NCBI RefSeq assembly: GCF_011764425.1
Contig: NZ_BLPF01000001.1
Location: forward strand, 983,001-1,047,000
Source: Phytohabitans houttuyneae
GTDB lineage: Bacteria > Actinomycetota > Actinomycetes > Mycobacteriales > Micromonosporaceae
Length of the DNA: 64,000 nt
Reading direction: 5' to 3'
Shown: one piece after another, positions 34,164 to 62,402 of the stretch
Layout of the letters: each line of letters starts with the position of its first letter
Position numbering within the stretch: position 1 is the stretch's first letter
Made by a program: the position numbers and the translations under genes
The notes under the pieces: generated by a model
Told to the model about the DNA's origin: nothing
Databases searched by the model: none
What the model saw: the letters and a program-made list of their open reading frames with translations, nothing else

Positions 34164-34180
34164 CTATATATTTTTAAACT
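34164..34180 (-). promoter_or_regulatory. Cluster motif site 1 (AGTT-N9-ATAG, TAGCGT)
   Basis: Minus strand; the flanks TTAG...TATAGCGTA closely match site 2. It points to the unknown 399-aa gene (start 34073) in an extremely AT-rich stretch (34160-34185). Confidence 0.6.
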
Positions 34181-34236
34181 AAGTCGTCAACCGGCTGGGC
34201 CTTATATACGCTGCACCATTTGAAATGAATGGCCCG

Positions 34237-35670
34237 TCAGCGCAGCAGACCGCGGGCGACACCCCACCCCGCGGCCAGGTCGCTCTCCAGCTGCCGCAGC
34301 CGCGCGGTGACCACCTGGTCGAAGCCGTCCAGGAACAGCTCGTCGCCCGGCTCGGCCTCGATCCGCCGCCCCGAGGCGACGAACTCCTCGATGACCTGGC
34401 CCAGCCCGACGGCCGGCGAAACCCGCCCGGCGACGTACCGGTCGGTCCGGGCCAGCCCGGGGAAGGCCGCCTCGCGGTACAAAAACACGTTGCCTAGCGG
34501 GTCGACCTGGAGAGCCACCTGCGGGTGCGCGCCGGGCCGCAGCTCGGCGTGCCCGAGCCGGGGCAGCACCGCTGGCGTCCCCTCGCGCAGGGCGTGCAGC
34601 GCGTACCCGTAGTCGACGCGCAGGCCGGGCGCGCGCTCGCGGACCCGCCGCTCGAACGCGCCCAGCGCCACGCGCAGCTCCTCGCGGTCCTCGGTGGACA
34701 GTCCGCCGGCGCCGGGACGCCCGCTGTACTCCTCGCGCAGGTTGAGGAAGGCCACCGGCCGCTCCGGGCAGGCCTCGTTCAGCTCCGCGACGAGGTCCAC
34801 GAGCCGGGTGATCCGGTGCACCTGCTCCGGCAGGATCACGTAGTTGAAGCCGAGCGCCGGCCCGTGCCCGCGCCGCCGGACCGCCCGCTGGTACTCGAGC
34901 AGGTTCGCCCGCACCCGGGTGAAGGCGCCGGCCCGGCCGGTCGTGCCGGTGTACTCCCCCTCGTCGGTGCCGTAGAGGGAGACCCGCAGCGCGCCGAGGT
35001 CCCACAGCCCCGGCTGGCGCCGCAGCGTGCCCGGTGTCAGCGCGAACGCGTTGGTGTAGCAGGTGACGTTGAAGCCGCGGGCGGCCGCGCGGCGCACCAG
35101 CTCGCCCGTGCCGGGGTTGGTCAGCGGCTCCAGCCCGCCGGAGATGTGCAGCCGCTCCGGGTCGTCGGTGGGCAGCTCGTCGATGATCGCGGCGAACGTG
35201 TCGTTGCCGGACGCGATGGCCGGCGTCTCGTACCGCACGCCGGTCAGCCGGCCGCAGAAGCCGCACCGCAGCATGCAGGTCGGCCCCGGGTAGAACCCGA
35301 TCATCTGCGGGTACCGGGGCAGGCCGCGCAGGACCGCGTCGAGGCTGCCGGACTGCTCCAGCGGCAGCACGGTCTTGGCCCAGTACTTCTGCGTCGGTCC
35401 GGTGAGCACCGCCTCCCGCAGCTGCGGCACCTCGTGGAACGCGCGCAGCAGAGCGGCAAGGCGCGTACGGTCCACGCCAAGCCGGCGGCGCGCCTCCTCC
35501 AGCGTGAGGAAGGGCTCCGCGACGTACATTCCGGTGAGCCTCACCAGCTCGGTCGCGGTGCGGGCCGGGTCGTCGGGCAGGTCCGGCTCGTAGGGCGGGC
35601 GGACCGGCCGGCGCCGCAGCGCGGCGAGCACCCGGTCCCGGAGGTCACGACTCTGGACGTCGGTGGTCAC
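34237..35670 (-). CDS. desII: DesII/EryCV-like radical SAM NDP-4-amino-sugar deaminase
   Basis: 477 residues from a GTG with GGGAG 8 nt upstream. The sequence follows DesII closely: GPTQKYWAKTVLPLEQSG, YPGPTCMLRCGFCGRLTGVRYE with the cluster cysteines C132, C136, C139, SGGLEPLTNPGTGELV, GYALHALREGTPAVLPR, and the end FLDGFDQVVTARLRQLESD. DesII removes the 4-amino group of TDP-4-amino-4,6-dideoxyglucose to give the 3-keto-4-deoxy sugar in desosamine synthesis. No dTDP-glucose genes occur in the window, so here the substrate may be a UDP-pentose; that is inference. Encoded 145 bp after the DesI-like gene. Confidence 0.88.
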   Translation of the reverse strand: MTTDVQSRDLRDRVLAALRRRPVRPPYEPDLPDDPARTATELVRLTGMYVAEPFLTLEEARRRLGVDRTRLAALLRAFHEVPQLREAVLTGPTQKYWAKTVLPLEQSGSLDAVLRGLPRYPQMIGFYPGPTCMLRCGFCGRLTGVRYETPAIASGNDTFAAIIDELPTDDPERLHISGGLEPLTNPGTGELVRRAAARGFNVTCYTNAFALTPGTLRRQPGLWDLGALRVSLYGTDEGEYTGTTGRAGAFTRVRANLLEYQRAVRRRGHGPALGFNYVILPEQVHRITRLVDLVAELNEACPERPVAFLNLREEYSGRPGAGGLSTEDREELRVALGAFERRVRERAPGLRVDYGYALHALREGTPAVLPRLGHAELRPGAHPQVALQVDPLGNVFLYREAAFPGLARTDRYVAGRVSPAVGLGQVIEEFVASGRRIEAEPGDELFLDGFDQVVTARLRQLESDLAAGWGVARGLLR

Positions 35671-35815
35671 GTGCGAATCTCCCTTCGGTTCGTCCGCCCC
35701 CGGGGGCTGGCGGGATCCGGGTCCGAGGAGCGCAGCGACGAGGCCGGATGGCGCCGGCCCCGGGCGCGCCCAGCGAGCGAAGCGAGCGCAACAAGCACAG
35801 CCCCGCCGCACCGGT

Positions 35816-37012
35816 TCACCCCGCCAGGTACGCCTCCGCGCGGTTGGCGAGGGTCGGCGCGTGCGCGACGGCGAACCGGATGAGGTCGCAGATCCGGCGC
35901 ACGTCCTCAAGGGAGACCGACGGCCCGGTGGGGAGCGCGAGGACCCGCGCGGCGAGGGCGTCGGCGTGCGGCAGCGACACCGCGGCCCGGTCCCGGTACG
36001 GCGGCAGCCGGTGGCAGCCGGGCGAGAAGTACTTCTGGACGATCACGTTTTCGGCGGTGAGCACCTCGGCGAGCGTGTCGCGGCCCAGCCCGGCGCCCGG
36101 GTCGACGGCCACGACCTCGTAGTGGTAGTTGTTGCGCTGCCGCTCGTCGAAGCGGAGCAGCCGGACGCCGTCGACGCCGGCCAGCTCCCGCGCGTACCGC
36201 CGGTGGTTGGCGAGGTTGTGCGCGGCCGACGCGTCGTACGCCTCCAGCGAGGTCAGCCCCATCGCGGCCGCCGCCTCGCTCATCTTCGCGTTGGTGCCGG
36301 GGCCGAGCACATCGCGGGACCCGTTCATCCCGAAGTTGCACATGGCCCGGAGCCGCTCGGCCAGGTCGGCGTCGTCGGTCACCACGCAGCCGCCCTCGAA
36401 CGCGTTCACCACCTTGGTGGCGTGGAAGCTGAACACCTCCGCGGCGCCGAACCCGCCGACCGGACGGCCCCGGTACGACGCCCCGAACGCCTGCGCGGCG
36501 TCGAAGACGAGCGTGAGCCCGTGCCGGTCGGCCAGCGCCTCCAGCTCCTCCGCCGCGCACGGCCGGCCCCACAGGTGCACGGCCAGGATCGCTGTCGTGC
36601 GCGGCGTGATGGCGGCCGCGACGGTGGCGGCGTCCGCGTTGCCCGTGCGCGGGTCGACGTCGCAGAAGACCGGTCGCAGGCCCAGCCACTGCAGCGCGTG
36701 CGGTGTGGCCACGAACGTCAGCGCCGGAACGACCACGTCGCCCCGCATGCCGGTGGCCCGCGCGAGCAGCTGCAGCGCGGCCGTGCCGTTGCAGGTCGCG
36801 ACGCAGTACCGCACACCCGCGCGCTCGGCCACCCGCCGCTCGAACTCGCGCACCAGCGGGCCGCCGTTGGTGAGCCAGTTGCGGTCCAGCACACCCTGGA
36901 GCCGTGCGAACAGCCGCGCGGTGTCGCCGACGTTCGGCCGGCCGACGAACAGCGGCTCGGCGAACTCCGGTGTCCCGCCCAGAACGGCGAGATCGGCGGC
37001 CTGAAGCTTCAC
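35816..37012 (-). CDS. desI: DesI/EryCIV-like sugar 4-aminotransferase (DegT family)
   Basis: 398 residues from a GTG with GGGGAAGG 8 nt upstream. PLP fold type I sugar aminotransferase: GRPNVGDTARLFARLQGVLDRNWLTNGGPLVREFE, TCNGTAALQLLARA, FDAAQAFGASYRGRPVGGFGAAEVFSFHATKVVNAFEGG (the Lys forms the Schiff base), and FSPGCHRLPPYR. It matches DesI rather than the 3-aminotransferase DesV. DesI installs the 4-amino group that DesII removes; the two genes adjoin here as a functional pair. Confidence 0.87.
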   Translation of the reverse strand: MKLQAADLAVLGGTPEFAEPLFVGRPNVGDTARLFARLQGVLDRNWLTNGGPLVREFERRVAERAGVRYCVATCNGTAALQLLARATGMRGDVVVPALTFVATPHALQWLGLRPVFCDVDPRTGNADAATVAAAITPRTTAILAVHLWGRPCAAEELEALADRHGLTLVFDAAQAFGASYRGRPVGGFGAAEVFSFHATKVVNAFEGGCVVTDDADLAERLRAMCNFGMNGSRDVLGPGTNAKMSEAAAAMGLTSLEAYDASAAHNLANHRRYARELAGVDGVRLLRFDERQRNNYHYEVVAVDPGAGLGRDTLAEVLTAENVIVQKYFSPGCHRLPPYRDRAAVSLPHADALAARVLALPTGPSVSLEDVRRICDLIRFAVAHAPTLANRAEAYLAG

Positions 37013-37069
37013 GCGCGTGGCCTTCCCCAAACGGGCGAGCGCCGGGCCGACCAGCCCGGCTTGCCGTTA

Positions 37070-37086
37070 GCTTCTAAAACATATAG
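37070..37086 (+). promoter_or_regulatory. Cluster motif site 2 (GCTT-N9-ATAG, TAGCGT) pointing at clpC
   Basis: Full match TTAGCTTCTAAAACATATAG with TAGCGT as -10-like hexamer. The predicted start of transcription near 37095 leaves about 57 nt of leader before the clpC ATG. Confidence 0.6.
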
Positions 37087-37153
37087 CGTACGCCTATCCG
37101 GGGTCAACGACGCCGAGTACGCCAGCCGGCCTGCACCGAGTGGGGTGGTCGAC

Positions 37154-39679
37154 ATGTTCGAGCGGTTCACCGACCGAGCGCGACGGGTTGTCGTCCTGGC
37201 TCAGGAAGAAGCCCGGATGCTCAACCACAACTACATCGGTACGGAGCACATCCTGCTGGGTTTGATCCATGAGGGTGAAGGCGTCGCGGCGAAGGCTTTG
37301 GAGAGTCTGGGTATTTCGTTGGAGGGCGTCCGCCAGCAGGTGGAGGAGATCATCGGGCAGGGTCAGCAGGCGCCGAGCGGGCATATTCCGTTCACGCCGC
37401 GGGCCAAGAAGGTGTTGGAGCTGTCGCTGCGTGAGGCGTTGCAGCTTGGTCACAACTACATCGGTACTGAGCACATCCTGCTGGGGTTGATCCGGGAGGG
37501 TGAGGGTGTCGCGGCTCAGGTGCTGGTGAAGTTGGGTGCTGATTTGAACCGGGTGCGGCAGCAGGTGATCCAGTTGCTGTCCGGCTACCAGGGCAAGGAG
37601 CCCGCTGCGGCGGGTGCTGCCGCCGGTGAGGCCGCCCCGTCGACGAGTTTGGTGTTGGACCAGTTTGGTCGGAACCTGACCCAGGCTGCCCGGGAGGGCA
37701 AGCTGGACCCGGTGATCGGGCGGGAGAAGGAGATCGAGCGGGTCATGCAGGTGCTGTCCCGCCGGACGAAGAACAACCCGGTCCTGATCGGTGAGCCCGG
37801 TGTGGGTAAGACCGCCGTGGTGGAGGGGCTGTCTCAGCGGATCGTCAAGGGTGAGGTCCCGGAGACGTTGAAGGACAAGCAGCTGTACACCCTGGATTTG
37901 GGTGCGTTGGTGGCGGGGTCCCGGTACCGCGGTGACTTCGAGGAGCGGTTGAAGAAGGTCCTCAAGGAGATCCGCACCCGCGGCGACATCATCTTGTTCA
38001 TCGACGAGATCCACACCCTGGTGGGTGCGGGTGCGGCGGAGGGTGCGATCGACGCCGCCTCGATTTTGAAGCCGATGCTGGCCCGGGGTGAGTTGCAGAC
38101 GATCGGCGCGACCACGCTGGATGAGTACCGTAAGCATTTGGAGAAGGACGCGGCGTTGGAGCGGCGGTTCCAGCCGATCCAGGTCGGTGAGCCCTCGTTG
38201 GCGCACACGATCGAGATTTTGAAGGGGTTGCGGGACCGGTACGAGGCCCATCACCGGGTGTCGATCACCGACGCCGCGCTGGTCGCCGCGGCCACCCTCG
38301 CCGACCGCTACATTTCGGATCGGTATCTGCCGGACAAGGCGATCGACTTGATCGATGAGGCGGGTGCGCGGATGCGGATCCGTCGGATGACCGCGCCGCC
38401 GGACCTGCGGGACTTCGATGAGCGGATCGCTCAGGTGCGCAGGGACAAGGAGTCCGCGATCGACGCGCAGGACTTCGAGCGGGCGGCGCAGCTGCGGGAC
38501 AAGGAGAAGCAGCTGCTGGGTCAGAAGGCGCAGCGGGAGAAGGAGTGGAAGGCCGGCGACCTCGACGTGGTCTCCGAGGTTGATGACGAGCAGATCGCTG
38601 AGGTGTTGGCGAACTGGACCGGTATTCCGGTGTACAAGCTGACCGAGGAGGAGACCTCGCGGCTGCTGCGGATGGAAGACGAGCTGCACAAGCGGGTCGT
38701 CGGGCAGGAAGACGCGGTCAAGGCGGTGTCCAAGGCGATCCGCCGCACGAGGGCCGGGTTGAAGGACCCGAAGCGGCCTTCTGGTTCGTTCATCTTCGCC
38801 GGGCCGTCGGGTGTGGGTAAGACCGAGTTGTCCAAAGCCCTGGCCGAGTTCCTGTTCGGGTCCGAGGACGCGTTGATTCAGCTGGACATGTCGGAGTTCC
38901 ACGACCGGTACACGGTGTCCCGGCTGGTCGGTGCCCCACCCGGGTACGTCGGCTACGACGAGGGTGGTCAGCTGACCGAGAAGGTCCGCCGGCGGCCGTT
39001 CTCGGTGGTGCTGTTCGACGAGATCGAAAAGGCCCACCCGGACGTGTTCAACACGCTGCTGCAGATCCTGGAGGACGGGCGGCTGACCGATGGTCAGGGC
39101 CGGATCGTCGACTTCAAGAACACGGTGATCATCCTGACCACCAACCTCGGCACCCGCGACGTCGCCAAAGCCGTCAGCTTGGGGTTCCAGGCTTCGGAGG
39201 ACTCCGAGTCGAACTACGAGCGGATGAAGCAGAAGGTCAACGACGAGCTCAAGCAGCACTTCCGGCCCGAGTTCCTGAACCGGATCGACGACACGATCGT
39301 GTTCCACCAGCTGCAAGAAGACGAAATCCTGGAGATCGTGGACATCATGATCGCCCGGATCGAAACCCAGCTGCGGAACAAGGACATGTCCATGGAGCTG
39401 ACCGACAACGCCAAAAAGTATTTGGCGAAGAAGGGCTTCGACCCCGTCCTGGGCGCCCGCCCACTACGCCGCACCATCCAACGCGACATCGAAGACAACC
39501 TCTCCGAGCGGATCCTGTTCAACGAACTCAAACCCGGCCAGATCGTCGTCGTCGACTGCGAAGGCGACCCGGAGGACGTGTTCCGGTCGACGCTGCTCTT
39601 CCGCAGCGCCGCCAAGCCGGAGCCCGCTCCCGCGCACGTGCCCGCCGACCTGCTGGCCCGCGGTACCGATCAGGAGTAG
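37154..39679 (+). CDS. clpC: ATP-dependent Clp protease ATP-binding subunit ClpC
   Basis: 841 residues, full length. N-terminal double Clp repeat ([29 protein letters not shown]... and [24 protein letters not shown]) with the [19 protein letters not shown] segment to which cyclomarin, ecumicin and rufomycin bind in mycobacterial ClpC1; it is unchanged here. AAA1 Walker [12 protein letters not shown]2 Walker [12 protein letters not shown] middle domain, and ClpP-loop region near [10 protein letters not shown]. Catalytic residues look intact. Wobble positions use more G and T (TTG, GGT) than the neighbours. It stands between sugar genes under a cluster-motif promoter. Confidence 0.96.
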
Positions 39680-40686
39680 CCGTAGGCGGCCGCGCCCAGT
39701 GCTTCAAGGCGTCGCCGGGTCACCTCGTCGCAGAGGGCCCCGGCGACGCCCGCTTCGTAGGCGGCCGAGGGCGGGACGCCCAGCCGCTCCGCGACCGTCC
39801 ACTCGCGACCCAGGTCGGTGTCGAACATCGCCGGGTCGTCGGTACCGACCGAGCAGCGGACACCGGCCGCGTGCAGCGCCGGCAGCGGGTGGTCGTCGAG
39901 CGTCTCCACGACCCGGGTGCGCAGGTTGGAGGTCGGGCAGACGTCGAGCACGATCCCCCGGTCCACGATCTCCTTCAGCAGGCCGGGATCGTCGACCACG
40001 CGCAGGCCGTGCCGCACCCGCGCCGGGTCGAAGCCGAGCACCTCCCGCACCGAGTCGCTGCCGCCGGCCTCCCCCGCGTGCGGCACCAGCGCCAGCCCAC
40101 CCTCGCGGGCGATGGCGAACGCGCGCGCGTACCGCGACGCCGGCGCCGCCAGCTCCGGACCGCCGATGCCGAACCCGACCACCCCGCGGTCGCGGTAGCG
40201 GACGACCTGCCGGGCACACTCCTGCGCCAGCTCGGGATCCAGCTCGCGGTCGATGTCCGGGGTCAGGCGCACCACGACACCGTGCTCCTGCTCGGCCGCC
40301 GCGGCGCCGTCCGCGTACCCCTCGAGGATCTCCGCCCAGCCGACGCCGCGCATCACCCGCTCCGCCGGCGAGAAGATCCCCTCCAGGTACACGGCGCCGT
40401 GCCCCGCCGCCTCCGCCGCGTAGTCCACCACGACCTGCCGGAAGTCGTCCGCGGTGCGCAGGCAGTTCGTGGTCATGCTCCACACGCGGATGAAGTTGGC
40501 GAAGTCGGTGAACTCGTAGAGCCTGCGCAGCTCGTCCACCGTGTCCACCGGCAGGCGCTGCCCGTTGCGCCGGGCGATCGCCAGGAGCGTGTCCGGGCGG
40601 ACCGTCCCTTCCAGATGCACATGAAGCTCGATCTTCGGCGCCGGACTGCCGGCCGCCCTCGTCGTCACGCCGTCCCGCTCGAGCAC
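39670..40686 (-). CDS. Adenosine deaminase family protein
   Basis: 338 residues. Metal motif ELHVHLEGTVRPDTL (HxH), HAGE in ALVPHAGEAGGSDSV, and STDDPAMFDTDL (SxxDDP) are all present, so catalysis is likely on adenosine, adenine or a related aminopurine. The GTG at 40686 gives a 22-bp overlap with the AraC gene; the GTG at 40668 (GTGA overlap) is an alternative. Convergent with clpC, overlapping by 10 bp. Its link to the biosynthetic cluster is uncertain. Confidence 0.88.
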   Translation of the reverse strand: MLERDGVTTRAAGSPAPKIELHVHLEGTVRPDTLLAIARRNGQRLPVDTVDELRRLYEFTDFANFIRVWSMTTNCLRTADDFRQVVVDYAAEAAGHGAVYLEGIFSPAERVMRGVGWAEILEGYADGAAAAEQEHGVVVRLTPDIDRELDPELAQECARQVVRYRDRGVVGFGIGGPELAAPASRYARAFAIAREGGLALVPHAGEAGGSDSVREVLGFDPARVRHGLRVVDDPGLLKEIVDRGIVLDVCPTSNLRTRVVETLDDHPLPALHAAGVRCSVGTDDPAMFDTDLGREWTVAERLGVPPSAAYEAGVAGALCDEVTRRRLEALGAAAYGYS

Positions 40687-41012
40687 GCCTGCTCACGATA
40701 CGCGCTCGGCGACAGCCCGACCCTCAGCTTGAACCGCGAGCTGAACGTGCCCACGCTCGCGTACCCGACCCGCTGGCTGATCTCGGCCACGCTCAGGTCG
40801 GTGGCGAGCAGCAGGCGCTGGGCCTCCTGGATCCGCAGCGCGGCCAGAAACCGGCCCGGCGTCACGCCCGTCGTCTGCCGGAAGAGCCGGATGAAGTGGT
40901 ACTTGCTGAACACCGCCGTGCGGGCCATGTCGTCGGCCGTGAACGAGTCGCCCAGGTTGTCGTGCATCGCTTCGACCACGCGCCGGACAGCATCTTCGGC
41001 AACGGTCCCCAT
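40665..41012 (-). CDS. Short AraC-type regulator (DNA-binding domain only)
   Basis: 115 residues from the ATG at 41012, almost entirely the double HTH: FTADDMARTAVFSKYHFIRLFRQTTGVTPGRFLAALRIQEAQRLLLATDLSVAEISQRVGYASVGTFSSRFKLRVGLSPSAYR. No effector domain. Such short AraC proteins (SoxS/MarA-like size) act as direct activators. Located inside the cluster beside two copies of the RSTT-N9-ATAG motif, it is the best candidate for the protein that reads that motif; not proven. Confidence 0.85.
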   Translation of the reverse strand: MGTVAEDAVRRVVEAMHDNLGDSFTADDMARTAVFSKYHFIRLFRQTTGVTPGRFLAALRIQEAQRLLLATDLSVAEISQRVGYASVGTFSSRFKLRVGLSPSAYREQACSSGTA

Positions 41013-41034
41013 GTGTCGCCCCCCAGCCACGGAA

Positions 41035-41051
41035 GCTTTTAAAAAGGCTAG
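41035..41051 (+). promoter_or_regulatory. Cluster motif site 3 (GCTT-N9-CTAG, TAGCAT)
   Basis: AAGCTTTTAAAAAGGCTAGCAT, one mismatch in the second box. It lies in the divergent region between the AraC gene and the aldo/keto reductase, in tandem with site 4. Confidence 0.5.
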
Positions 41052-41108
41052 CATTGAGATCGCTTGCTCCACCATAGCCAGCCTTCGAGCCAAGTGGTCT
41101 TTACCTTA

Positions 41109-41125
41109 GCTTCAGAACCACATAG
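41109..41125 (+). promoter_or_regulatory. Cluster motif site 4 (GCTT-N9-ATAG, TAGCAT), leaderless promoter
   Basis: TTAGCTTC...ACATAGCAT matches site 2 at about 18 of 24 positions. TAGCAT ends 8 nt before the GTG of the aldo/keto reductase at 41137, so the message should begin at the start codon; no SD is visible. Confidence 0.65.
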
Positions 41126-41136
41126 CATTTTGTATC

Positions 41137-42132
41137 GTGACCAACCCTCTCCACACGGCCCTCGGCCGCACCGGCCTGCAGGTGAGCAGGCTGGGCCTGG
41201 GCACGGTCAACTTCGGTGGCCGGGTCGAGGAACCGGAGGCCCGCCTGCTGCTCGACGCGGCGGTGGACCGGGGGATCAACCTGGTCGACACGGCCAACAT
41301 CTACGGCTGGCGGGTCCACAAGGGATACACCGAGGAGCTGCTCGGGCGCTGGCTGTCCAGCCGCCCCCGGCGCCGCGACGACCTCGTGCTGGCGACCAAG
41401 GTGGGCTGGCCGATGACCGACCGGGTCAACGACCGCGGCCTCTCCGCCCGCAACATCATCGCGGCCTGCGAGGCCTCCCTGCGCCGGCTCCGGACCGACT
41501 GGATCGACCTGTACCAGATGCACGAGGTCGACCGCGCGGTCGGCTGGGTGGAGATCTGGGAGGCGATGGAGACGCTGATCCGCCAGGGCAAGGTGCGGTA
41601 CGTCGGGTCGTCCAACTTCGCCGGCTGGGACATCGCCTCCGCGCAGGAGGTCGCGGAGCGGCGCGGGCTGCTCGGCCTCGCCGCCGAGCAGTGCTGCTAC
41701 AACCTGGTCACCCGGCACACGGAGCTGGAGGTGATCCCGGCGGCCGCGGCCCGCGGGCTCGGCGTGCTGGCGTGGTCGCCCCTGCACGGCGGGCTGCTCG
41801 GCGGGGTGCTGCGCAAGCTGGGGGAAGGCACGGCGGTCAAGTCCGCGCAGGGCCGCGCGGTGCCGGCGCTGGAGCGCGACCGGGCCACGATCGCCGAGTT
41901 CGAGCGCTACTGCGCCAAGGTCGAACGGGATCCCGCGGAGGTCGCCATGGCCTGGGTGCTCGCCCAGCCGCACGTCACCGGCATCATCACCGGCCCGCGC
42001 ACACCGTCCCATCTGGACGCCGCGTTCGCGGCGCTCGAACGCGGGCTCTCCGGCGAGGAGCTGGCCCAGCTCGACGAGCTGTTCCCGCCGATCGGCAACG
42101 GTGGACCGGCACCGCAGGCGTGGATGTCATGA
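41137..42132 (+). CDS. Aldo/keto reductase, NDP-hexose 2,3-enoyl reductase type (EryBII/TylCII-like)
   Basis: 331 residues from a GTG. AKR fold: HTALGRTGLQVSRLGLGTVNFGG, INLVDTANIYGW (Asp/Tyr of the tetrad), LVLATKVGWPM (Lys), IDLYQMHEVDRAVGW (His) and the nucleotide site GIITGPRTPSHLDAA. Relatives reduce the 2,3-unsaturated or 3-keto intermediate after 2,3-dehydratase action on deoxysugars. Here it begins a three-gene operon with an O-methyltransferase and the 2,3-dehydratase, which supports that role. Start overlaps nothing; ends 4 bp into the next gene (ATGA at 42129). Confidence 0.86.
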   Translation: MTNPLHTALGRTGLQVSRLGLGTVNFGGRVEEPEARLLLDAAVDRGINLVDTANIYGWRVHKGYTEELLGRWLSSRPRRRDDLVLATKVGWPMTDRVNDRGLSARNIIAACEASLRRLRTDWIDLYQMHEVDRAVGWVEIWEAMETLIRQGKVRYVGSSNFAGWDIASAQEVAERRGLLGLAAEQCCYNLVTRHTELEVIPAAAARGLGVLAWSPLHGGLLGGVLRKLGEGTAVKSAQGRAVPALERDRATIAEFERYCAKVERDPAEVAMAWVLAQPHVTGIITGPRTPSHLDAAFAALERGLSGEELAQLDELFPPIGNGGPAPQAWMS

Positions 42133-44912: not shown

Positions 44913-46415
44913 TCAGGAGGCGACCGCGGCCCACTTCTTCTTGGCGTTCTTCCAGGTGGAGGAGTTGATTTCGCTCCAGGCGCGACTGCGCATCTCCTCG
45001 AGGACGTCCGGGGGCACGAGGGTGCCGCTCATGTTCGCGTTGTAGATGTTCATCGTGTCCGGGTCGAAGTCCTCGCTGATGTGACCGCCGGCGACCGCCT
45101 GGTCGAAGAGCGGGGAGCCGGGCAGCGGCACGACGAGGAAGAAGTTCGCGGCGTCCAGGCCGTACGACACGTGCTCGCGGGCGAGGTCCAGCGTGCGTTC
45201 GATCTCCTCGAGCGTCTCGTCCGGGTACCCCATCATGTAGTTGCCGTAGATCTTGAAGCCGTACTCCTTCATCGCGATGATCAGGCCCTTGATGTCCGCC
45301 ATCTCGATGTTGAGCTTGTTGCTCGCGTACTTGCGCATGATGCGCAGGTTGCCCGTCTCGAACGGCATGTTGATCTGGGTGAAACCGGCGTTCGCCAGCG
45401 CCTCGAGGACCTCGTGGTCCGGCTTCCACTTCTTCAGCAGGTGGATGATGTTGATGCCGTTGAGGTCGCAGATGGTCACGCCGGCGCCCTGGATCTTGCG
45501 CAGCAGCCGCAGTCCCCGCCGCTTGTCGCCCAGCAGCGAGTCGTCCTCGATGAACACGTCGGTCACGCCGAGGCCCTTGAGCGTGTCGATCTCGGCCAGC
45601 ACCCGGTCGTCGGACTTGACGCGGAACTTGCCGATCGGGCCGCTCAGGCTGCCCTCCTGCTCGCCCGCGATGTGGCAGTACGCGCAGTGGAAGGGGCAGC
45701 CGAGCGAGGTCATCATCTGCGCGTACCGCAGCTCGACGCCGGGCTCGAACATGCCCGAGTGCGGCCGGGCGATCTTCCAGTACCGCGCGTTGGGCATCAG
45801 GTCCCAGGCGGGCATCGGCAGCTTGTCCAGGTCCCAGACGACGTCCTGCGCGCGGGCGGGGTTGGCCAGGATCCGGCCCTCGCCGGGCAGCGCGACCCCG
45901 TGTATCCCGCTGAAGTCGGGGTTCGGCGAGCGCCGGGCCGCGTCGACGATCTCGACGATCGCCTGCTCGCCCTCGGAAAGGGCGATCGCGTCGAACCCGG
46001 CCGCGAAGAAGCGCGGCATGCGCGACCGCGCGTTCACGCCGCCGGTGATGAGGAGCTTCTCGGGGTACGCCGCGCGGATCAGCCGCGCGCAGTGCAGGAC
46101 CATCGTCTCCTGGTCCGTGAAGATCGAGGTGATGCCGACGATGTCGTAGTCGGCGGCGACCTCGAGGATGCGCTCGTCGCTCACGCCGGTGCGCAGGAAG
46201 CCGCTGGGCAGTGGCACGGGCTTCGCGAACATCTCCTCCAGCGGGTCGCCGTCGCTGCCCACGCACGCGTCGAAGATCCGCACGTCGACGCCGTGCTCGC
46301 GCAGGGCGCCGGCGAGGTTGGGGTAGGCGAGCGACCCGTTCGGCTTGCACACCGCCCCCGGGGCGGTCTGGGCCGGCGGGTACAGGAGCAGCACGCGTAC
46401 ATCACGAAGACCCAT
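44913..46415 (-). CDS. Cobalamin-dependent radical SAM enzyme (copy 1)
   Basis: 500 residues from the ATG at 46415. N-terminal B12-binding Rossmann domain (about 1-155: VRVLLLYPPA, LREHGVDVRIFDA, YDIVGITSIFTDQ, LLITGGVNARSRMP) without a clear DxHxxG. Radical SAM core with C240-C244-C247 (GCPFHCAYC), then DVFIEDDSLLGDKRRGLRLLRKI and FETGNLRIMRKYASNKLN. Enzymes of this class often methylate unactivated carbons. A paralog lies at 60877. The cluster-motif -10 (TAGTCT) ends 7 nt before the ATG, a leaderless start. Confidence 0.88.
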   Translation of the reverse strand: MGLRDVRVLLLYPPAQTAPGAVCKPNGSLAYPNLAGALREHGVDVRIFDACVGSDGDPLEEMFAKPVPLPSGFLRTGVSDERILEVAADYDIVGITSIFTDQETMVLHCARLIRAAYPEKLLITGGVNARSRMPRFFAAGFDAIALSEGEQAIVEIVDAARRSPNPDFSGIHGVALPGEGRILANPARAQDVVWDLDKLPMPAWDLMPNARYWKIARPHSGMFEPGVELRYAQMMTSLGCPFHCAYCHIAGEQEGSLSGPIGKFRVKSDDRVLAEIDTLKGLGVTDVFIEDDSLLGDKRRGLRLLRKIQGAGVTICDLNGINIIHLLKKWKPDHEVLEALANAGFTQINMPFETGNLRIMRKYASNKLNIEMADIKGLIIAMKEYGFKIYGNYMMGYPDETLEEIERTLDLAREHVSYGLDAANFFLVVPLPGSPLFDQAVAGGHISEDFDPDTMNIYNANMSGTLVPPDVLEEMRSRAWSEINSSTWKNAKKKWAAVAS

Positions 46416-46425: not shown

Positions 46426-46442
46426 CTATCTAATTTTCAAGC
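46426..46442 (-). promoter_or_regulatory. Cluster motif site 5 (GCTT-N9-ATAG, TAGTCT), leaderless promoter
   Basis: Minus strand; the -10-like TAGTCT (46428-46423) is 7 nt from the ATG of radical SAM gene 1. Perfect match in both boxes. Confidence 0.65.
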
Positions 46443-48025: not shown

Positions 48026-48042
48026 ACTTGCAATTGATATAG
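48026..48042 (+). promoter_or_regulatory. Cluster motif site 6 (ACTT-N9-ATAG, TAGTAA)
   Basis: In the 117-bp divergent region between the START-domain gene and the glycosyltransferase; reads toward the glycosyltransferase, leaving about 65 nt of leader. Confidence 0.5.
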
Positions 48043-53121: not shown

Positions 53122-53138
53122 CTATATATCTTTCTAGC
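53122..53138 (-). promoter_or_regulatory. Cluster motif site 7 (GCTA-N9-ATAG, TAGCAA)
   Basis: Minus strand; it is also a perfect inverted repeat TTGCTA-N10-TAGCAA. About 23 nt of leader with an SD precede the ATG at 53095. Confidence 0.6.
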
Positions 53139-53173: not shown

Positions 53174-53190
53174 GCTTCACTTCGATATAG
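53174..53190 (+). promoter_or_regulatory. Cluster motif site 8 (GCTT-N9-ATAG, TAGTTA)
   Basis: Plus strand, pointing to the methyltransferase at 53228; both boxes match exactly. Back to back with site 7. Confidence 0.6.
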
Positions 53191-54247: not shown

Positions 54248-54270
54248 CGTTCCGCGCCCACAGGCGCGGC

Positions 54271-56343: not shown

Positions 56344-56384
56344 CTGCCCCTCGCAAAGCGCCGCGGATCGAACGGAGGCGTTTG

Positions 56385-56401
56385 AGTTTAACATGACATA
56401 G
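56385..56401 (+). promoter_or_regulatory. Cluster motif site 9 (AGTT-N9-ATAG, TAGTCT)
   Basis: Weaker copy in the 198-bp divergent region ahead of the UDP-glucose dehydrogenase operon, in tandem with site 10. Confidence 0.4.
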
Positions 56402-56459
56402 TCTCTTGGAGACCAGCCACGCCCTCAGCAGCTTGGCAACCTCGCTCCCCCGATCACAT

Positions 56460-56476
56460 GCTTTAATGAAGCATAG
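56460..56476 (+). promoter_or_regulatory. Cluster motif site 10 (GCTT-N9-ATAG, TAGCGA)
   Basis: ATGCTTTAATGAAGCATAGCGA, both boxes exact, with an embedded ATGCTT/AAGCAT inverted repeat. Reads toward the sugar operon at 56542. Confidence 0.6.
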
Positions 56477-56541
56477 CGATCAGGAGCCCCGCGCAGGCCG
56501 GCATCGCCGCCGGCGGTCGAGAAGGGTGGTGCGCAGCCGTC

Positions 56542-57894
56542 ATGCGTTTTCTCCCCGATTCACACGCTCCCTCGGTCACGGTCGTCGGCTTCGGCTACGT
56601 CGGGTCCTGCCTGGGCGTGACCCTCGCCGAGCGGGGCCTCCGCGTCACCGGCGTCGACAGCAACCGCGCGCTCGTCGACGAGCTGCGCGACGGGCGCTGC
56701 CCCATCCCCGAGCCCGGGCTCGCCGATGCCGTCGCCCGGCTGGCCGGCTCGGGGCGGTTCACCTGCACCACGGGGTACGAGGACGCCGGCGCGACCGACG
56801 TCGTGGTCATCACCGTCGGCACGCCCGTCGGCCCGGACCACCGGATCGTCACCGACCAGCTCGAGGAGGCGTGCAAGCGGCTCGCCACCCGGCTGCGCCG
56901 CGGGCAGCTCGTCGTCGTCAAGAGCACCGTCCCGCCAGGCACCACCCGCGAGCTGGTCCTGCCCCTGCTGGAGCGCAGCGGGCTGGTCGCCGGGCGCGAC
57001 TTCGGGCTGGCGTACTGCCCCGAGCGGCTGGCGCAGGGCAGCGCGCTGCGCCAGCTCGCCGAGCTTCCCGTGGTCGTCGGCGGCTACGACCCGGAGAGCA
57101 CCGCGGCCGCCGTGCAGTTCTGGAAGCAGGCGCTCGACGTACCGGTCCAGACGCTGCCCGGCCTGGAGACCGCCGAGGTGGTCAAGCTGGCCTCCAACTG
57201 GTGGATCGACGTGAACGTGGCGCTCGCCAACGAGCTGGCCCAGTTCTGCGCCCCGCACGGCGTGGACGTGCTGGACGTGATCGCCGCGGCGAACGCGCTG
57301 CCCAAGGGCGAGGGCCGGGTCAACATCCTGCTGCCCAGCGTCGGCGTGGGCGGCTCCTGCCTCACCAAGGACCCGTGGATGGCCTGGCGGGCGGCCGCCG
57401 ACCGGGGCATCGCCCTGGAGACCGTCGAGACCGCGCGCCGGGTAAACGACGCCATGCCCACCCGGGCCGGCCAGCTCATCGCGGACGAGCTGGCCGCGCT
57501 GGGCAAGGCGCCGGCGGAGTGCACGGTGGCGGTGCTCGGCGTCGCGTTCAAGAGCAACACCGGCGACCTGCGGGACACCCCGGTCGTCGGGGTGGTCGAC
57601 GCGCTGCGCGCCACCGGCGCCGCGGTGCGCCTCTTCGACCCGCTCGCGGACCCGGCCGACGTGGAGGCGCGCTTCGGCGCCCGGCCGGTCGCGTCGGTCG
57701 AGGCCGCGGTGTCCGGTGTGGACGCGATCGCCATCCTCGCGGGCCACCAGGAGTTCCACCGGCTCGACTTCGCGCGGCTGCGCGCCGAGGTGGCCATGCC
57801 GTGCCTCATCTTCGACGGCCGGATGTACTACCCGCCGGACACCATCGCCGACCTGACGTCGCTCGGCTACCGGTACCGGGGAGTCGGCCGATGA
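56542..57894 (+). CDS. UDP-glucose 6-dehydrogenase (CalS8-like)
   Basis: 450 residues. NAD site VTVVGFGYVGSCLGVTLAERG, KSTVPPGTTRELVLPLL, YCPERLAQGSALRQL, KLASNWWIDVNVALANELA, the catalytic Cys in VGVGGSCLTKDPWM, and GVAFKSNTGDLRDTPVVGVVDAL. Makes UDP-glucuronate from UDP-glucose; UDP-N-acetylmannosamine dehydrogenase is a possible confusion, but the gene behind it is a glucuronate decarboxylase. First of four overlapping or closely spaced sugar genes. Confidence 0.88.
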   Translation: MRFLPDSHAPSVTVVGFGYVGSCLGVTLAERGLRVTGVDSNRALVDELRDGRCPIPEPGLADAVARLAGSGRFTCTTGYEDAGATDVVVITVGTPVGPDHRIVTDQLEEACKRLATRLRRGQLVVVKSTVPPGTTRELVLPLLERSGLVAGRDFGLAYCPERLAQGSALRQLAELPVVVGGYDPESTAAAVQFWKQALDVPVQTLPGLETAEVVKLASNWWIDVNVALANELAQFCAPHGVDVLDVIAAANALPKGEGRVNILLPSVGVGGSCLTKDPWMAWRAAADRGIALETVETARRVNDAMPTRAGQLIADELAALGKAPAECTVAVLGVAFKSNTGDLRDTPVVGVVDALRATGAAVRLFDPLADPADVEARFGARPVASVEAAVSGVDAIAILAGHQEFHRLDFARLRAEVAMPCLIFDGRMYYPPDTIADLTSLGYRYRGVGR

Positions 57895-58868
57895 CCGCGG
57901 TCGTGACCGGTGGCAGCGGCTTCATCGGCAGCCACCTCGTGGAGCGGCTTGCCGTGGAGGGCGGCCAGGTCCGCACGTTCGACCTCGGCCCTCCCCCGCC
58001 CGACGCGGGCGCGCACACCGCCGGCGTGGAGCACGTCGTCGGGGACATCCGCGACGAGGCCGCACTGCGCAGTGCGATCCGGCCGGGCGTCGAGGTGGTA
58101 TACCACCTGTCGGCGGTGGTCGGCGTCGACCGGTACCTCGCCTCCCCGCTGGACGTCATCGAGGTCAACCTGCTCGGCACCCGCAACGTGCTGCGGCTCG
58201 CGCACGAGGTGGGCGCGAAGGTGGTGGTCGCCAGCACCAGCGAGATCTACGGCAAGAACCCCCAGGTGCCGTGGGCCGAGGACGGCGACCGCGTGCTCGG
58301 GCCGACGAACACCGACCGCTGGTCGTACTCGTCGAGCAAGGCGCTGGCCGAGCACCTCACGTTCGCGTACGCGCGCGGCACCGGCCTGCGCGCCTGCGTC
58401 GTGCGGTACTTCAACGTGTACGGCCCGCGCCAGCGCCCCGCCTACGTGGTCAGCCGCACCATCCACCGGGTGCTGCGCGGCGAGCGCCCGCTCGTGTACG
58501 ACGGCGGCCTGCAGACCCGCGCGTTCACGTACGTCGCGGACGCGGTCGCCGGCACGCTGCTGGCCGGCGCCGACCCCGCCGTCGACGGCGAGATCGTCAA
58601 CCTCGGCAGCGACCGGGAGAGCACCGTCGCCGAGGTGGTGGAGCTCGTCTGCGCGCTGTCCGGCACCGGGCTCTCACCGAAGCCGCTGGCGACCGGCGAG
58701 GCGTTCGGCGCCGCGTACGAGGACATCCCCCGCCGCGTGCCCGACGTGGCCAAGGCGCGGCGGCTGCTCGGCTGGAAGTGCGAGACCCCGCTGCGCGAGG
58801 GCATCGACCGGACGATCCGGTGGGCTCGGGCGAACCCGTGGTGGATGGCGCCCGGCCTGCGCACCTGA
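57891..58868 (+). CDS. UDP-glucuronate decarboxylase-like SDR (CalS9-like)
   Basis: 325 residues, ATGA overlap with the dehydrogenase. Extended SDR: GGSGFIGSHLVERLA, VVYHLSAVVGVDRYL, catalytic YSSSK, RYFNVYGPRQRPAYVVSRTIHRVLRGE. STSEIYGKN carries the Ser-Glu pair that in ArnA and UXS enzymes promotes decarboxylation. Product: UDP-xylose or UDP-4-keto-pentose, giving a pentose precursor for the aminotransferase encoded next. Confidence 0.85.
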   Translation: MTAVVTGGSGFIGSHLVERLAVEGGQVRTFDLGPPPPDAGAHTAGVEHVVGDIRDEAALRSAIRPGVEVVYHLSAVVGVDRYLASPLDVIEVNLLGTRNVLRLAHEVGAKVVVASTSEIYGKNPQVPWAEDGDRVLGPTNTDRWSYSSSKALAEHLTFAYARGTGLRACVVRYFNVYGPRQRPAYVVSRTIHRVLRGERPLVYDGGLQTRAFTYVADAVAGTLLAGADPAVDGEIVNLGSDRESTVAEVVELVCALSGTGLSPKPLATGEAFGAAYEDIPRRVPDVAKARRLLGWKCETPLREGIDRTIRWARANPWWMAPGLRT

Positions 58869-58895
58869 ACCCCTACCGAGGAAAGGGCCGAACCA

Positions 58896-60028
58896 TGATC
58901 CCCTTGTTCAAGGTCGCGATGTCGCCGGCGGCGATGGGCCGGATCGCGGACGTGTTCAGCAGCGGCATGATGGTGCACGGTCCCACCGTGGGCGCGTTCG
59001 AGGAGGCACTGCGCCGGGTCGTCGGCAACCCGCACCTGGCCGCGGTCAACAACGGCACCAGCGCGCTGCACCTGGCCATGCGGCTGGCCGCCGACCCCGG
59101 TCCGGGCGCCGAGCCGCGGCCGGCGGGGCGGGACGAGGTGCTGGCGACGCCGCTCACCTTCGAGGCGGCCAACTTCGCGGTGCTGGCCAACGGGCTGCGC
59201 CTGCGGTGGGTCGACGTCGACCCGGGGACGTTCACCATCGACCTCGACGACCTGGCCCGCAAGATCTCGCCGGCCACCGCCGCGATCTCGCTGGTGCACT
59301 GGGCCGGCTACCCGGTGGACCTGGACCGGCTCAGCCGCATCCTGGACGACGCCGAGGCCGCGCACGGCCACCGGCCGCTGGTCGTCGAGGACTGCGCGCA
59401 CGCCTGGGGCACCACGCTGCGCGGCCGCCGGCTGGGCAACCACGGCAACGTGTGCATCTTCAGCTTCCACGCGCTCAAGCACCTGACCTGCGGTACCGGC
59501 GGCATGATCACGCTGCCCGACCAGCGGATGCACGAGCGGGTGCAGCTGCTGCGCTGGCTCGGCATCGACCGGCGGGCCGACCGGATCAACGCGAGCTACG
59601 ACGTGCCGGAGTGGGGGTACAACTTCCAGCTCAACGACATCGCCGCCGCGATGGGGCTGGCCAACTTGGAGATCGTCGACGAAAACCTGCGCCGGCACCG
59701 GGCCAACGCCGCCTACTACGACGAGGAGCTGGCCGGCGTGACCGGGCTGGAGCTCACCGACCGCGCGCCCGGCCACGACTCGTCGTTCTGGCTGTACCCG
59801 CTCAAGGTCCGCGACCGGGACGCGTTCATGCGGAAGATGACCGAGGCCGGCATCGCGGTGACCCGCTTCGTGCGGCGCAACGACTGGCACTCCGCCGTGC
59901 GCGAGTTCCGGGTCCCGCTGCCGGGCCTCGACGGCGTCTACGACCAGATGGTGTACATCCCGGTCGGGTGGTGGCTCACCGAGGAGGACCGGGCGTACGT
60001 CGCGAAGACCATCCGGGCCGGTTGGTGA
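58896..60028 (+). CDS. Sugar aminotransferase, DegT/DnrJ/EryC1 family (CalS13/AtmS13-like)
   Basis: 377 residues. MIPLFKVAMSPAAMGRIADVFSSGMMVHGPTVGAFEEAL, NNGTSALHLAMRLA, EDCAHAWGTTLRGRRLGNHGNVCIFSFHALKHLTCGTGG with the PLP-Lys, then YNFQLNDIAAAMGLANLE. Installs an amino group on a keto-sugar, here most likely C4 of the UDP-4-keto-pentose made by the two preceding gene products. AGGAAAGG lies about 8 nt ahead of the ATG. Distinct from the DesI-like enzyme at 35816. Confidence 0.87.
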
Positions 60029-60063
60029 CCGCGTCCGGCCGAGCGCTACAGGAGGGGCAGAAC

Positions 60064-60834
60064 ATGACGACCGTCGAGCAGCCGGCGGAGCGCGTGGACT
60101 ACGGCGGCTACTACGGGCCGCTGAGCCAGTGGTACGACATGGTCTACATCGGACGGGGCAAGGACTTCACCAGTGAGGCCAAGGACGTGGCCGCCATCAT
60201 CCGGGCCCGCCGCCCCGACGCGACGTCCCTGCTCGACGTCGGCTGCGGTACCGGCGAGCACCTGCTCCGCTGGCGCACGATGTTCGCTCTGGTCGAAGGC
60301 GTCGACATCTCGCCCGACATGCGCGCCGTCGCGCAGGCCAAGGTGCCCGACGTGCGGATCCACCTCGGCGACATGCGCGACTTCGACCTGGGCCGTACGT
60401 TCGACGGCATCTGCTCGCTGTTCAGCACGATCGGCTACATGACGTCGACGGCCGAGCTCGACGCCGCGATCGCCAACCTCGCCCGCCACCTGACCCCCGG
60501 CGGCGTGCTCGTGGCGGAGCCGTGGTGGTTTCCCGAGCAGTTCCTCGACGGCTACATCGGGCACGACGTCGTCGTGAGGGAGGGCGCCACGGTCGCCCGG
60601 GTGGTCCGCACGACGATGGTCGACGGCACCGCGCACCTGGAGGCCCACTACGCCGCCGCGGACGCGGACGGCATCCGCAGCTTCGTGCACGTTCAGCGGT
60701 TCACCCTGTTCGAGTACACCGACTACCGCGACGCCTTCGTGCGCGCCGGCTGCGACGTCGAGTACCTGCGCGACCCGGGCGCCAACATGACCAGCACCGG
60801 CCGCGGCCTCTTCGTCGGCGTGAAGCGCGGTTAG
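60064..60834 (+). CDS. DesVI/TylM1-like sugar N-methyltransferase
   Basis: 256 residues; AGGAGGGG precedes the ATG by 6 nt. YDMVYIGRGKDFTSEAKDVAAIIRARRPDATSLLDVGCGTGEHL, HLGDMRDFDLGRTFDGICSLFSTIGYM, PGGVLVAEPWWFPEQFLDGYI and GRGLFVGVKRG align with DesVI block by block. DesVI dimethylates the 3-amino group of the desosamine precursor. Here it follows a pentose aminotransferase gene, so it should N-methylate the 4-amino pentose. Ends in a shared bidirectional terminator. Confidence 0.9.
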   Translation: MTTVEQPAERVDYGGYYGPLSQWYDMVYIGRGKDFTSEAKDVAAIIRARRPDATSLLDVGCGTGEHLLRWRTMFALVEGVDISPDMRAVAQAKVPDVRIHLGDMRDFDLGRTFDGICSLFSTIGYMTSTAELDAAIANLARHLTPGGVLVAEPWWFPEQFLDGYIGHDVVVREGATVARVVRTTMVDGTAHLEAHYAAADADGIRSFVHVQRFTLFEYTDYRDAFVRAGCDVEYLRDPGANMTSTGRGLFVGVKRG

Positions 60835-60858
60835 GGCCCGTCTCCCGGAGACGGGCCC
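60834..60858. terminator. Bidirectional terminator GGGCCCGTCTCC/GGAGACGGGCCC
   Basis: A perfect 12-bp inverted repeat with a 1-nt centre begins at the last base of the N-methyltransferase stop codon and faces the convergent radical SAM gene. Confidence 0.75.
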
Positions 60859-60876
60859 TGACCAGGGGGTCTGGCT

Positions 60877-62376
60877 CTATTTCGTGGCCGTCTGCCGCTT
60901 CTTCTCGACGTACCAGGGCCTGTTGATCTCCTCCCACGCACGGTGCCGGATCTCCTCGAGCTTGTCGGCCGGCACGAGGGTTCCGCTCATGTTGGCGTGG
61001 TAGATGTTCATGTTGTCCGGATCGAAGTCCGGGGAGAAGTGCCCTTCGGCGATCGACAGGTCGTAGAGGGCGGAGCCGGGCAGCGGCACCACGACGAAGA
61101 AGCTCGCGGCGTCCATGCCGTACGACATGTGTTCGCGGGCGAGCTGGAGGGTCGTCTCGATCTCCTCCATCGTCTCGTCCGGGTACCCGATCATGTAGTT
61201 GCCGGTGATCCTGAAGTTGTACTCCTTCATCGCGACGATCAGCGACTCGATGTCGGCCATCTCGATGTTCAGCTTGTTGCTGGCGTACTTGCGCATGACC
61301 CGCAGGTTGCCCGTCTCGAACGGCAGGTTGATCTGGGTGAAACCCGCGTTCGCCAGCGCCTCCAGGACCTCGTGGTCCGCCTTCCACTTCTTCAGCAGGT
61401 GGATGATGTTGATGCCGTTCAGGTCGCAGATCGTGAAGCCGGCACCCTGGATCTTCCGCAGCAGCCGCAGCCCCCGCCGCTTGTCACCCAACAGCGAGTC
61501 GTCCTCGATGAAGACGTCCGTCACGCCGAGGTCCTTGAGGAAGTCGAGCTCGGCCAGCACCCGGTCGTCCGACTTCACGCGGAACTTGCCGATCGGCCCG
61601 GCGATGCTGCCCTCCTGCTCGCCGGAGATGTGGCAGTACGCGCAGTGGAACGGGCAGCCCAGCGAGGTCATCAACTGCGCGTACCGCAGCTCGACACCCG
61701 GCTCGAACATGCCCGAGTGCGGCCGGGCAATCTTCCAGTACCGCTTGTTGGGCAGGAGGTCCCAGGCCGGCATCGGCAGCTTGTCCAGGTCCCACACCAC
61801 GTCCTTGGACCGGGCGGGGTTGATCCGGGTGACTCCGCTGGAGTCGACGAACGCCACCCCGTGGATGGACGAGTAGTCCGGGCGGCTCGACTGCCGGACC
61901 GCGTCGATGATCTCCACGATGGTGAACTCGGCCTCCGACAGGCAGACCACGTCGAACCCCGCATCGAAGAACCGTGGCAGGCGGGACCGCGCGTTCACTC
62001 CCCCGGAGATGAGGATCTTGTCCGGGTACGCCTCGCGGATCTGCCGCGCGCAGTGCAGGACCCTCGTCTCCTGGTCCGTGAAGATCGACGAGATGCCGAT
62101 GATGTCGTAGTCCGCCGCCACCTCCAGGACCCGCTCGTCGCTGACTCCGGTGCGCATGTAGCCGCTGGGCAGCATCGTGGGGTTGTCGAACATCTCCTGG
62201 AGCGGGTCGTCCCCGTCACCGACGCAGGCGTCGAAGATCCGCACGTCCACGCCGTGGGCGCGCACCGCACCGGCCAGGTTCGGGTAGGCGAGCGACGCGT
62301 TCGGCTTGTTCGTCGTCCCCACGGGGGACTGGACCGGCGGAGAGAGCAACAGCACCCTGACATCGCGAAGAGCCAT
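60877..62376 (-). CDS. Cobalamin-dependent radical SAM enzyme (copy 2)
   Basis: 499 residues, close paralog of the enzyme at 44913 along the whole length, including the unusual WKIARPHSGMFEPGVELRYAQ block and C241-C245-C248 (GCPFHCAYC). The B12-binding domain (about 1-155) differs more than the SAM core. Two such enzymes could perform successive methylations of one site or act on two substrates. TAGTAT of site 11 ends 6 nt before the ATG: leaderless. No small peptide gene follows it. Confidence 0.88.
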   Translation of the reverse strand: MALRDVRVLLLSPPVQSPVGTTNKPNASLAYPNLAGAVRAHGVDVRIFDACVGDGDDPLQEMFDNPTMLPSGYMRTGVSDERVLEVAADYDIIGISSIFTDQETRVLHCARQIREAYPDKILISGGVNARSRLPRFFDAGFDVVCLSEAEFTIVEIIDAVRQSSRPDYSSIHGVAFVDSSGVTRINPARSKDVVWDLDKLPMPAWDLLPNKRYWKIARPHSGMFEPGVELRYAQLMTSLGCPFHCAYCHISGEQEGSIAGPIGKFRVKSDDRVLAELDFLKDLGVTDVFIEDDSLLGDKRRGLRLLRKIQGAGFTICDLNGINIIHLLKKWKADHEVLEALANAGFTQINLPFETGNLRVMRKYASNKLNIEMADIESLIVAMKEYNFRITGNYMIGYPDETMEEIETTLQLAREHMSYGMDAASFFVVVPLPGSALYDLSIAEGHFSPDFDPDNMNIYHANMSGTLVPADKLEEIRHRAWEEINRPWYVEKKRQTATK

Positions 62377-62385
62377 AGCAAAATA

Positions 62386-62402
62386 CTATCAGTATTTAAA
62401 GC
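62386..62402 (-). promoter_or_regulatory. Cluster motif site 11 (GCTT-N9-ATAG, TAGTAT), leaderless promoter
   Basis: Minus strand; both boxes exact. TAGTAT (62388-62383) lies 6 nt ahead of the ATG at 62376 of radical SAM gene 2. An AAATACT-GAT-AGTATTT inverted repeat overlaps it. Confidence 0.65.

Follow-up and report, generated by a model that had tools for sequence, protein, structure and literature searches.

Introduction

Enediynes are very potent DNA-cleaving antibiotics that are studied as cancer-drug payloads, and how their producers silence the corresponding gene clusters is poorly known. The closest described regulatory system is that of tiancimycin, for which the main text of the published study reports an HxlR-family regulator that represses (TnmR1), an ABC1/UbiB-type protein (TnmR3) and an AraC-type activator (TnmR7) (PMC9464397). 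Here, we describe a two-box motif, RSTT-N9-ATAG, that is distributed over an enediyne biosynthetic cluster of Phytohabitans houttuyneae, together with its candidate binder, a winged-helix protein with HxlR and SCP2 domains. The analysed stretch, referred to as the window, comprises 64,000 nucleotides (positions 983,001 to 1,047,000 of contig NZ_BLPF01000001.1); five-digit positions are those of the window, and larger ones, or those prefixed C1, are those of the contig.

According to the same main text, overexpression of TnmR1 lowered its target transcripts and loss of TnmR3 tended to raise them, and the ABC1-type partner was proposed to take part in signalling. TnmR1 bound the intergenic fragments tnmC-D, tnmR1-J, tnmB-R3 and tnmT2-S3, and did not bind tnmM2-N or tnmI-R1 (PMC9464397). 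That main text describes no operator and mentions neither 'motif' nor 'binding site', and our literature search found no described operator for a TnmR1-type HxlR protein of enediyne clusters, although the paper spells HxlR with a capital I, so that name searches can miss papers. An earlier note, made from the letters of the window, had stated that no described regulator has this site. This stands for the operator within the literature searched, whereas a described regulator of the type does exist in TnmR1. The regulator class is thus already known.

The motif is probably the cluster-wide operator of a TnmR1-type repressor, the 235-residue HxlR-SCP2 protein encoded at 29185..29892 on the reverse strand. 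We favour this assignment because of the clustering of the motif, its conserved cores, its dyad, its co-occurrence with HxlR across genomes and its agreement with the published TnmR1 gel shifts.

Distribution of the motif

All eleven sites listed in the earlier note were found, each with two boxes nine bases apart. The left box is GCTT in seven sites, AGTT in two, ACTT in one and GCTA in one, and the right box is ATAG in ten and CTAG in one; nine sites match RSTT-N9-ATAG exactly, while those at 41035 and 53122 carry one mismatch. The proposed operators on the forward strand are GCTTCTAAAACATATAG (37070..37086), which precedes a ClpC-like gene, the CTAG variant GCTTTTAAAAAGGCTAG (41035..41051), GCTTCAGAACCACATAG (41109..41125), followed by a start codon at 41137, ACTTGCAATTGATATAG (48026..48042) before a glycosyltransferase gene, GCTTCACTTCGATATAG (53174..53190) before a methyltransferase gene, and AGTTTAACATGACATAG (56385..56401) and GCTTTAATGAAGCATAG (56460..56476), the first and second sites of a sugar operon. 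Those on the reverse strand are AGTTTAAAAATATATAG (34164..34180), which precedes a DUF6004 gene, GCTTGAAAATTAGATAG (46426..46442) and GCTTTAAATACTGATAG (62386..62402), each before a B12 radical-SAM gene (starts at 46415 and 62376, respectively), and GCTAGAAAGATATATAG (53122..53138). The window contains ten exact matches, these nine and one at 26193 on the reverse strand, and none of the reversed pattern. The match at 26193 was excluded from the proposed parts, its matrix score being only 12.4.

The spacing is specific. Across the 80 kb at C1:1009-1089 kb, a spacing of nine gives 16 matches, and every other spacing from 5 to 14 gives between zero and two. Genome-wide (11.34 Mb), RSTT-N9-ATAG occurs 89 times and its reversed pattern 129 times, so the motif is unenriched across the genome as a whole and enriched solely in the cluster stretch. 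A genome-wide check of this kind had been proposed in the earlier note, and it bears out the enrichment: 16 of the 89 matches fall within C1:1009193-1088677, where the reversed pattern is absent, with a Poisson p of 1.5e-17 that is optimistic because the stretch was drawn round the sites. The sites run on past the right edge of the window, the final one at 1088661 lying ahead of the polyketide synthase (PKS) operon. Separately, a repeat of the AAGTTAGCGTCGAAAT type with conserved flanks occurs at several places (window 44489, C1:945682 and C1:1119058) and explains part of the genome-wide background of RSTT-N9-ATAG.

A scoring matrix was built from 22 sites picked by hand from the list of matches with at most one mismatch; weak members of that list, for example those at 985166, 1056492, 1071586, 1082236, 1088464 and 1088528, were left out. 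The resulting logo gives WARSTTNARWAWNRTATAGYRWT, without a conserved -35. For eight of the eleven window sites, a counterpart was identified in Phytohabitans suffuscus; in these pairs, the 24-bp cores are 89% identical compared with 46% for ungapped flanks, a contrast favoured by the choice of pairs from motif hits. The CTAG-variant site of the window (41035-41085) and a second one at C1:1056358-1056405 are also alike downstream (GCTAGCATT...GATC...CACCATAGCC), like a duplicated promoter-leader unit; by gene-caller starts, no gene on the same strand lies within 3.5 kb of the second copy.

Dyad and promoter architecture

In its full form, RCTTNA-N6-TATAGY, the motif is an imperfect dyad, and its right half is often a -10 element as well. 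In 114 sites outside the genome of P. houttuyneae, complementary bases occur 58 times at positions 1-18, 100 times at 2-17, 102 times at 3-16 and 68 times at 6-13, against a background of about 31. The logo of these sites has T/T at positions 4/15, as would follow from a second role of the right half as a -10. These counts and those for 135 sites below come from 31 regions chosen after the sites had been seen, and they are descriptive rather than an enrichment test.

The hexamer TAGNNT ends 6, 7 and 8 nucleotides before the start codons at 62376, 46415 and 41137, respectively, as had been noted earlier. The accompanying view that a normal -35 is lacking holds in part. Neither the 22-site logo nor the 135 sites gathered across relatives shows conserved -35 columns, or any other conserved columns upstream of the motif, but in 23 of the 135 sites a TTG precedes TAG by 15-19 bp, compared with 3-12 in shifted controls, so some sites do have a -35. 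The sites were also said to point with transcription. This applies to the window's own cluster, where a gene starts on the same strand no more than 206 bp downstream of 20 of the 22 hand-picked sites (gene-caller starts), and more loosely across relatives: within 300 bp, 92 of the 135 sites are accompanied by a gene start on the same strand, 35 by one on the opposite strand only and 8 by neither.

The HxlR-SCP2 protein

The protein encoded at 29185..29892 matches Pfam HxlR (PF01638) at 1e-20 with 73.8 bits (cut-off 20.8) and SCP2 at 4.7e-11, and it matches PDB chains of YodB and HxlR. Its proposal as the binder of the motif draws on these matches and on the co-occurrence described below. A near-perfect dyad, ACTATTAGTTACGATAGC (29896..29913, reverse strand), lies 3 nt before its predicted start codon and may be an autoregulatory operator. 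Such a dyad stands upstream of HxlR in four of the nine genomes with a full-length HxlR, with examples in P. suffuscus, Winogradskya humida and a Nocardiopsis, and its place just upstream of the start suggested the link between motif and HxlR. Directly upstream of the HxlR gene lies a gene for an ABC1/UbiB-type kinase (29938..31230, reverse strand; Pfam ABC1, 2.3e-54), which would be a TnmR3-type partner; in tiancimycin, this family is represented by TnmR2 and TnmR3 (PMC9464397).

The window protein combines what is found in a TnmR1-type regulator: HxlR and SCP2 halves, an enediyne cluster and an adjacent ABC1/UbiB kinase gene. TnmR1 itself shows both domain matches, with SCP2 just above the cut-off, and is homologous over its full length at 50% identity. 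The two systems also share an ABC1-kinase gene within the cluster and, for TnmR1 as reported in the main text, binding to several promoters of the enediyne cluster. They differ in that tiancimycin is a 10-membered anthraquinone-fused enediyne, whereas the window cluster has a 9-membered-type PKS and many more sites.

Other relatives are more distant. SgcE1 of C-1027 is reported as an HxlR-like protein within an enediyne cluster (PMC2657911), as is the case in the window. In an S. globisporus locus, L042, which may not be the one with sgcE1, the match in the PKS region covers only the winged-helix part at 48% identity, and there is no site scoring at least 20. The Bacillus regulators YodB, CatR and HypR (MarR/DUF24, HxlR family) have related winged-helix sequences but control quinone and azo detoxification genes, unlike an enediyne cluster, and the matched PDB chains are short. 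Cys16, near the N-terminus of the window protein, is invariant in all 18 aligned HxlR-SCP2 homologues, TnmR1 included, and aligns with a cysteine in two of the three PDB relatives shown. It recalls the redox-sensing repressors of the YodB type (PMC6798810), although the YodB alignment starts after the cysteine, so that it is at most a putative equivalent of YodB Cys6. A second HxlR-SCP2 gene, 52% identical, is present in the same genome at G000:C2:917307-917954.

Co-occurrence of site and regulator

With the 22-site matrix, 80 enediyne-PKS loci from other species were scored, and all 79 genomes were searched for HxlR. A site scoring at least 20 was found at 6 of 16 PKS loci in genomes with HxlR versus 0 of 64 (1.57 Mb) in those without (Fisher p = 2.7e-5). 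Presence here denotes a match above 180 bits, with the split match of L049 also accepted; the 180-bit line was set after the matches had been seen, and five PKS genomes whose best match reached 160-177 bits (G014, G017, G020, G021 and G069) were counted as lacking HxlR. M. sonchi and M. qiuiae at first seemed exceptions. Their HxlR genes lie on separate contigs beside ABC1 and SARP genes, 7.6 kb from the contig end in M. sonchi and on a 16.6-kb contig in M. qiuiae, and we infer that these contigs belong to the same cluster.

HxlR loci were also collected by protein similarity alone, at E ≤ 1e-50 for the class and E ≤ 1e-45 for Streptomyces and the family. Matches occurred in 5 of 394 genomes of the class, 11 of 392 Streptomyces genomes and 40 of 354 genomes of the family, with P. 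houttuyneae counted in class and family. Around the HxlR gene (2.2-3.7 kb), 30 hits scoring at least 18 were found in 22 of the 48 best loci and none in the reversed control; for the family, the best loci were scanned and 11 lower matches left out. Removal of eight loci of genomes already met leaves 29 hits in 21 of 40 loci, with a hit of at least 20 in 17 of the 40. Among homologues at least 64% identical outside the genome of P. houttuyneae, 11 of 13 loci carry a hit.

With wider flanks, a site scoring at least 20 is present in 22 of 23 regions with both HxlR and an enediyne PKS (P. houttuyneae included), and these regions hold 101 sites versus 2 for the reversed matrix. Where HxlR and ABC1 occur together and the stretch includes no PKS, seven of ten regions have a site, and eight regions with an HxlR of 40-52% identity and no match to seven queried cluster proteins contain one site in 212 kb. 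Hits that fell on both strands were counted once in these region counts, in the 135-site set and in the last of the recounts. A. oligospora was considered as a carrier of the motif outside enediyne clusters, with its PksE locus (L035) on another contig; this reading was dropped on account of its gene content and the enediyne PKS in its own extended region.

Comparison with tiancimycin

Genome G478 carries the tiancimycin cluster, one of its proteins being identical over 489 residues to PDB TnmK2. The matrix, built from the window cluster only and blind to the tiancimycin sequence, scored the TnmR1-bound fragments named in the main text at 23.2 (tnmC-D), 21.9 (tnmR1-J), 16.1 (tnmB-R3) and 9.3 (tnmT2-S3), and the unbound fragments at 3.1 (tnmM2-N) and -6.0 (tnmI-R1). 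The four bound fragments rank second to fifth among 18 gaps, and none of 300 column-shuffled matrices reached the same difference between bound and unbound means.

Discussion

In the proposed mechanism, an HxlR dimer would sit on the dyad RCTTNA-N6-TATAGY over the -10 region of most cluster operons, among them the enediyne PKS operon, and of the HxlR gene itself. Bound HxlR would keep RNA polymerase off during cell growth and let go on a signal. This signal may act through the SCP2 domain, through the invariant Cys16 or through the partner kinase of the ABC1 type. The half-sites RCTTNA (left) and TATAGY (right) would be unlike each other because the right one is also used as the -10.

Several observations weigh against this assignment. 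Regarding the regulator and its partners, the dyad upstream of HxlR is missing from five of the nine genomes that encode the full-length protein, and the second HxlR gene of P. houttuyneae has no site scoring at least 20 in the surrounding 20 kb, with one at 18.6. Ten of the 16 HxlR-positive PKS loci lack a site of at least 20 in their 26 kb, although some of these clusters carry sites in other parts. In S. anulatus, the region with HxlR (48%) and a PKS shows no site of even 17; three of the ten HxlR and ABC1 regions without a PKS lack a site of at least 20, including G1115 at 75% identity; and the 40 new loci include several from close relatives whose sites are almost alike. As for the dyad, pairs 4-15, 7-12 and 8-11 are complementary below background in the 114 sites, and no pair clearly covaries beyond the column make-up, so that the case for a dyad comes from the consensus and from the near-perfect copies.

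The tiancimycin comparison has its own difficulties. TnmR1 bound its fragments only partly (PMC9464397). The highest-scoring gap (24.7), which precedes the PKS operon, does not appear among the fragments named in that paper's main text, tnmT2-S3 scores low for a bound fragment, and the gap before tnmR7 has no site (-7.1), though the paper counts tnmR7 as a direct TnmR1 target. Rank separation of bound from unbound fragments was also obtained with 15 of 300 shuffled matrices. The fragment limits were set in our analysis and are not those of the published probes, six of the seven fragments were compared, and, tnmK2 apart, the tnm genes were named from their order and size.

Of all the steps, the sign of control is the least secure. 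We prefer a repressor to an activator because the homologue TnmR1 is reported to repress (PMC9464397), and it is in this respect that the earlier note's cluster-specific activator appears less likely, its idea of a cluster-specific regulator site over the core promoter being retained. That HxlR-SCP2 binds the motif but activates is nevertheless the strongest rival, and we regard it as unlikely. Most sites lack a -35, the B. subtilis HxlR is called an activator in its PDB entries, and deletion of tnmR1 lowered the titre, with target transcripts trending down, a result that weakens the case for repression and that the authors attribute to early cell death (PMC9464397). An activating HxlR is harder to reconcile with a site that overlaps the -10 region, and with the effects of TnmR1 overexpression and TnmR3 loss on target transcripts reported in the same main text.

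An AraC-type activator that binds the motif and recruits polymerase is quite improbable. The candidates are the 115-residue AraC-1 (40665..41012, reverse strand; Pfam match on a longer open reading frame), which the earlier note had put forward as the binder, and AraC-2 (C1:1087547-1088389), possibly TnmR7-like. Both genes lie within the cluster, homologues of AraC-2 occur in several motif-bearing clusters, and TnmR7 offers a precedent as the reported AraC-type activator of tiancimycin. The distribution of sites, however, does not follow these proteins. The 96-kb region of P. suffuscus has 16 strong sites and no separate AraC-1, its sole AraC-1 match being its AraC-2 gene; an AraC-1-like match (some of AraC-2 type) is present in 55 of the 64 HxlR-negative PKS loci, none of which has a site scoring at least 20; and the 40-kb regions of G470 and G354, with eight and seven sites, have no AraC-2 match at 1e-10. 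AraC sites are, moreover, usually direct rather than dyadic.

A promoter of a special sigma factor, also raised in the earlier note, is less probable still. TAGNNT lies at leaderless spacing, and an ECF-like gene is found near the PKS (C1:1101067). Of the 80 enediyne loci, only two have a match to this gene, both from genomes without HxlR, and the motif-bearing regions compared have none. A -35 conserved at a fixed distance was not found, TTG being present in 23 of the 135 sites only. The dyad and the looser orientation across relatives fit an operator better, and a sigma factor would leave the dyad, the site at the start of HxlR itself and the co-occurrence with HxlR unexplained.

Least credible is a SARP-type regulator (C1:1085527-1087338) with GCTT as the 3' heptamer of a direct repeat: the position of the motif relative to the -10 resembles that of SARP sites and a variant site (1085512) precedes the SARP gene, but SARP operators consist of heptamers repeated directly at intervals of about 11 bp ahead of the -10, whereas no conserved upstream repeat is seen here, and there is no SARP match in the regions of A. 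alba, A. oligospora, G470 and G354, which carry 6, 12, 8 and 7 sites.

The operator reading for HxlR-SCP2 provides a concrete predicted operator for a repressor type that has gel shifts but no defined site in the main text of its study. It would extend TnmR1-type regulation beyond the 10-membered anthraquinone-fused cluster to one of 9-membered type, with candidate target promoters listed here. Together, operator and HxlR form a sequence marker for finding and studying such clusters. More tentatively, one operator code may be common to 9- and 10-membered-type enediyne clusters, with HxlR-SCP2 sensing the enediyne, a precursor or the thiol/redox state through the SCP2 pocket or Cys16 and freeing all operons together. 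In that case, HxlR and operator as a pair would serve to predict and switch silent enediyne clusters; we regard this broader proposal as possible rather than probable.

Cluster content

The stretch at C1:1009-1089 kb is an enediyne biosynthetic cluster that extends beyond the right end of the window. Its PKS has 1917 amino acids, with UnbV-type and DUF1702 genes next to it. It is 87% identical to the enediyne PKS of P. suffuscus, 60% to one S. globisporus PKS and 47% to the PKS of the tiancimycin cluster; by this similarity, the cluster is classed as a putative 9-membered-type enediyne cluster. Other genes encode a neocarzinostatin-family apoprotein, NDP-hexose and aminotransferase enzymes, glycosyltransferases, a P450, a halogenase and B12 radical-SAM enzymes. 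The apoprotein gene (C1:1050498-1050899), to the right of the window, adjoins divergent motif sites at 1050172 and 1050336, which suggests a chromoprotein enediyne. The cluster also includes a gene for a ClpC-type AAA+ chaperone (37217-39679), which is preceded by a motif site and is 98% identical in P. suffuscus.

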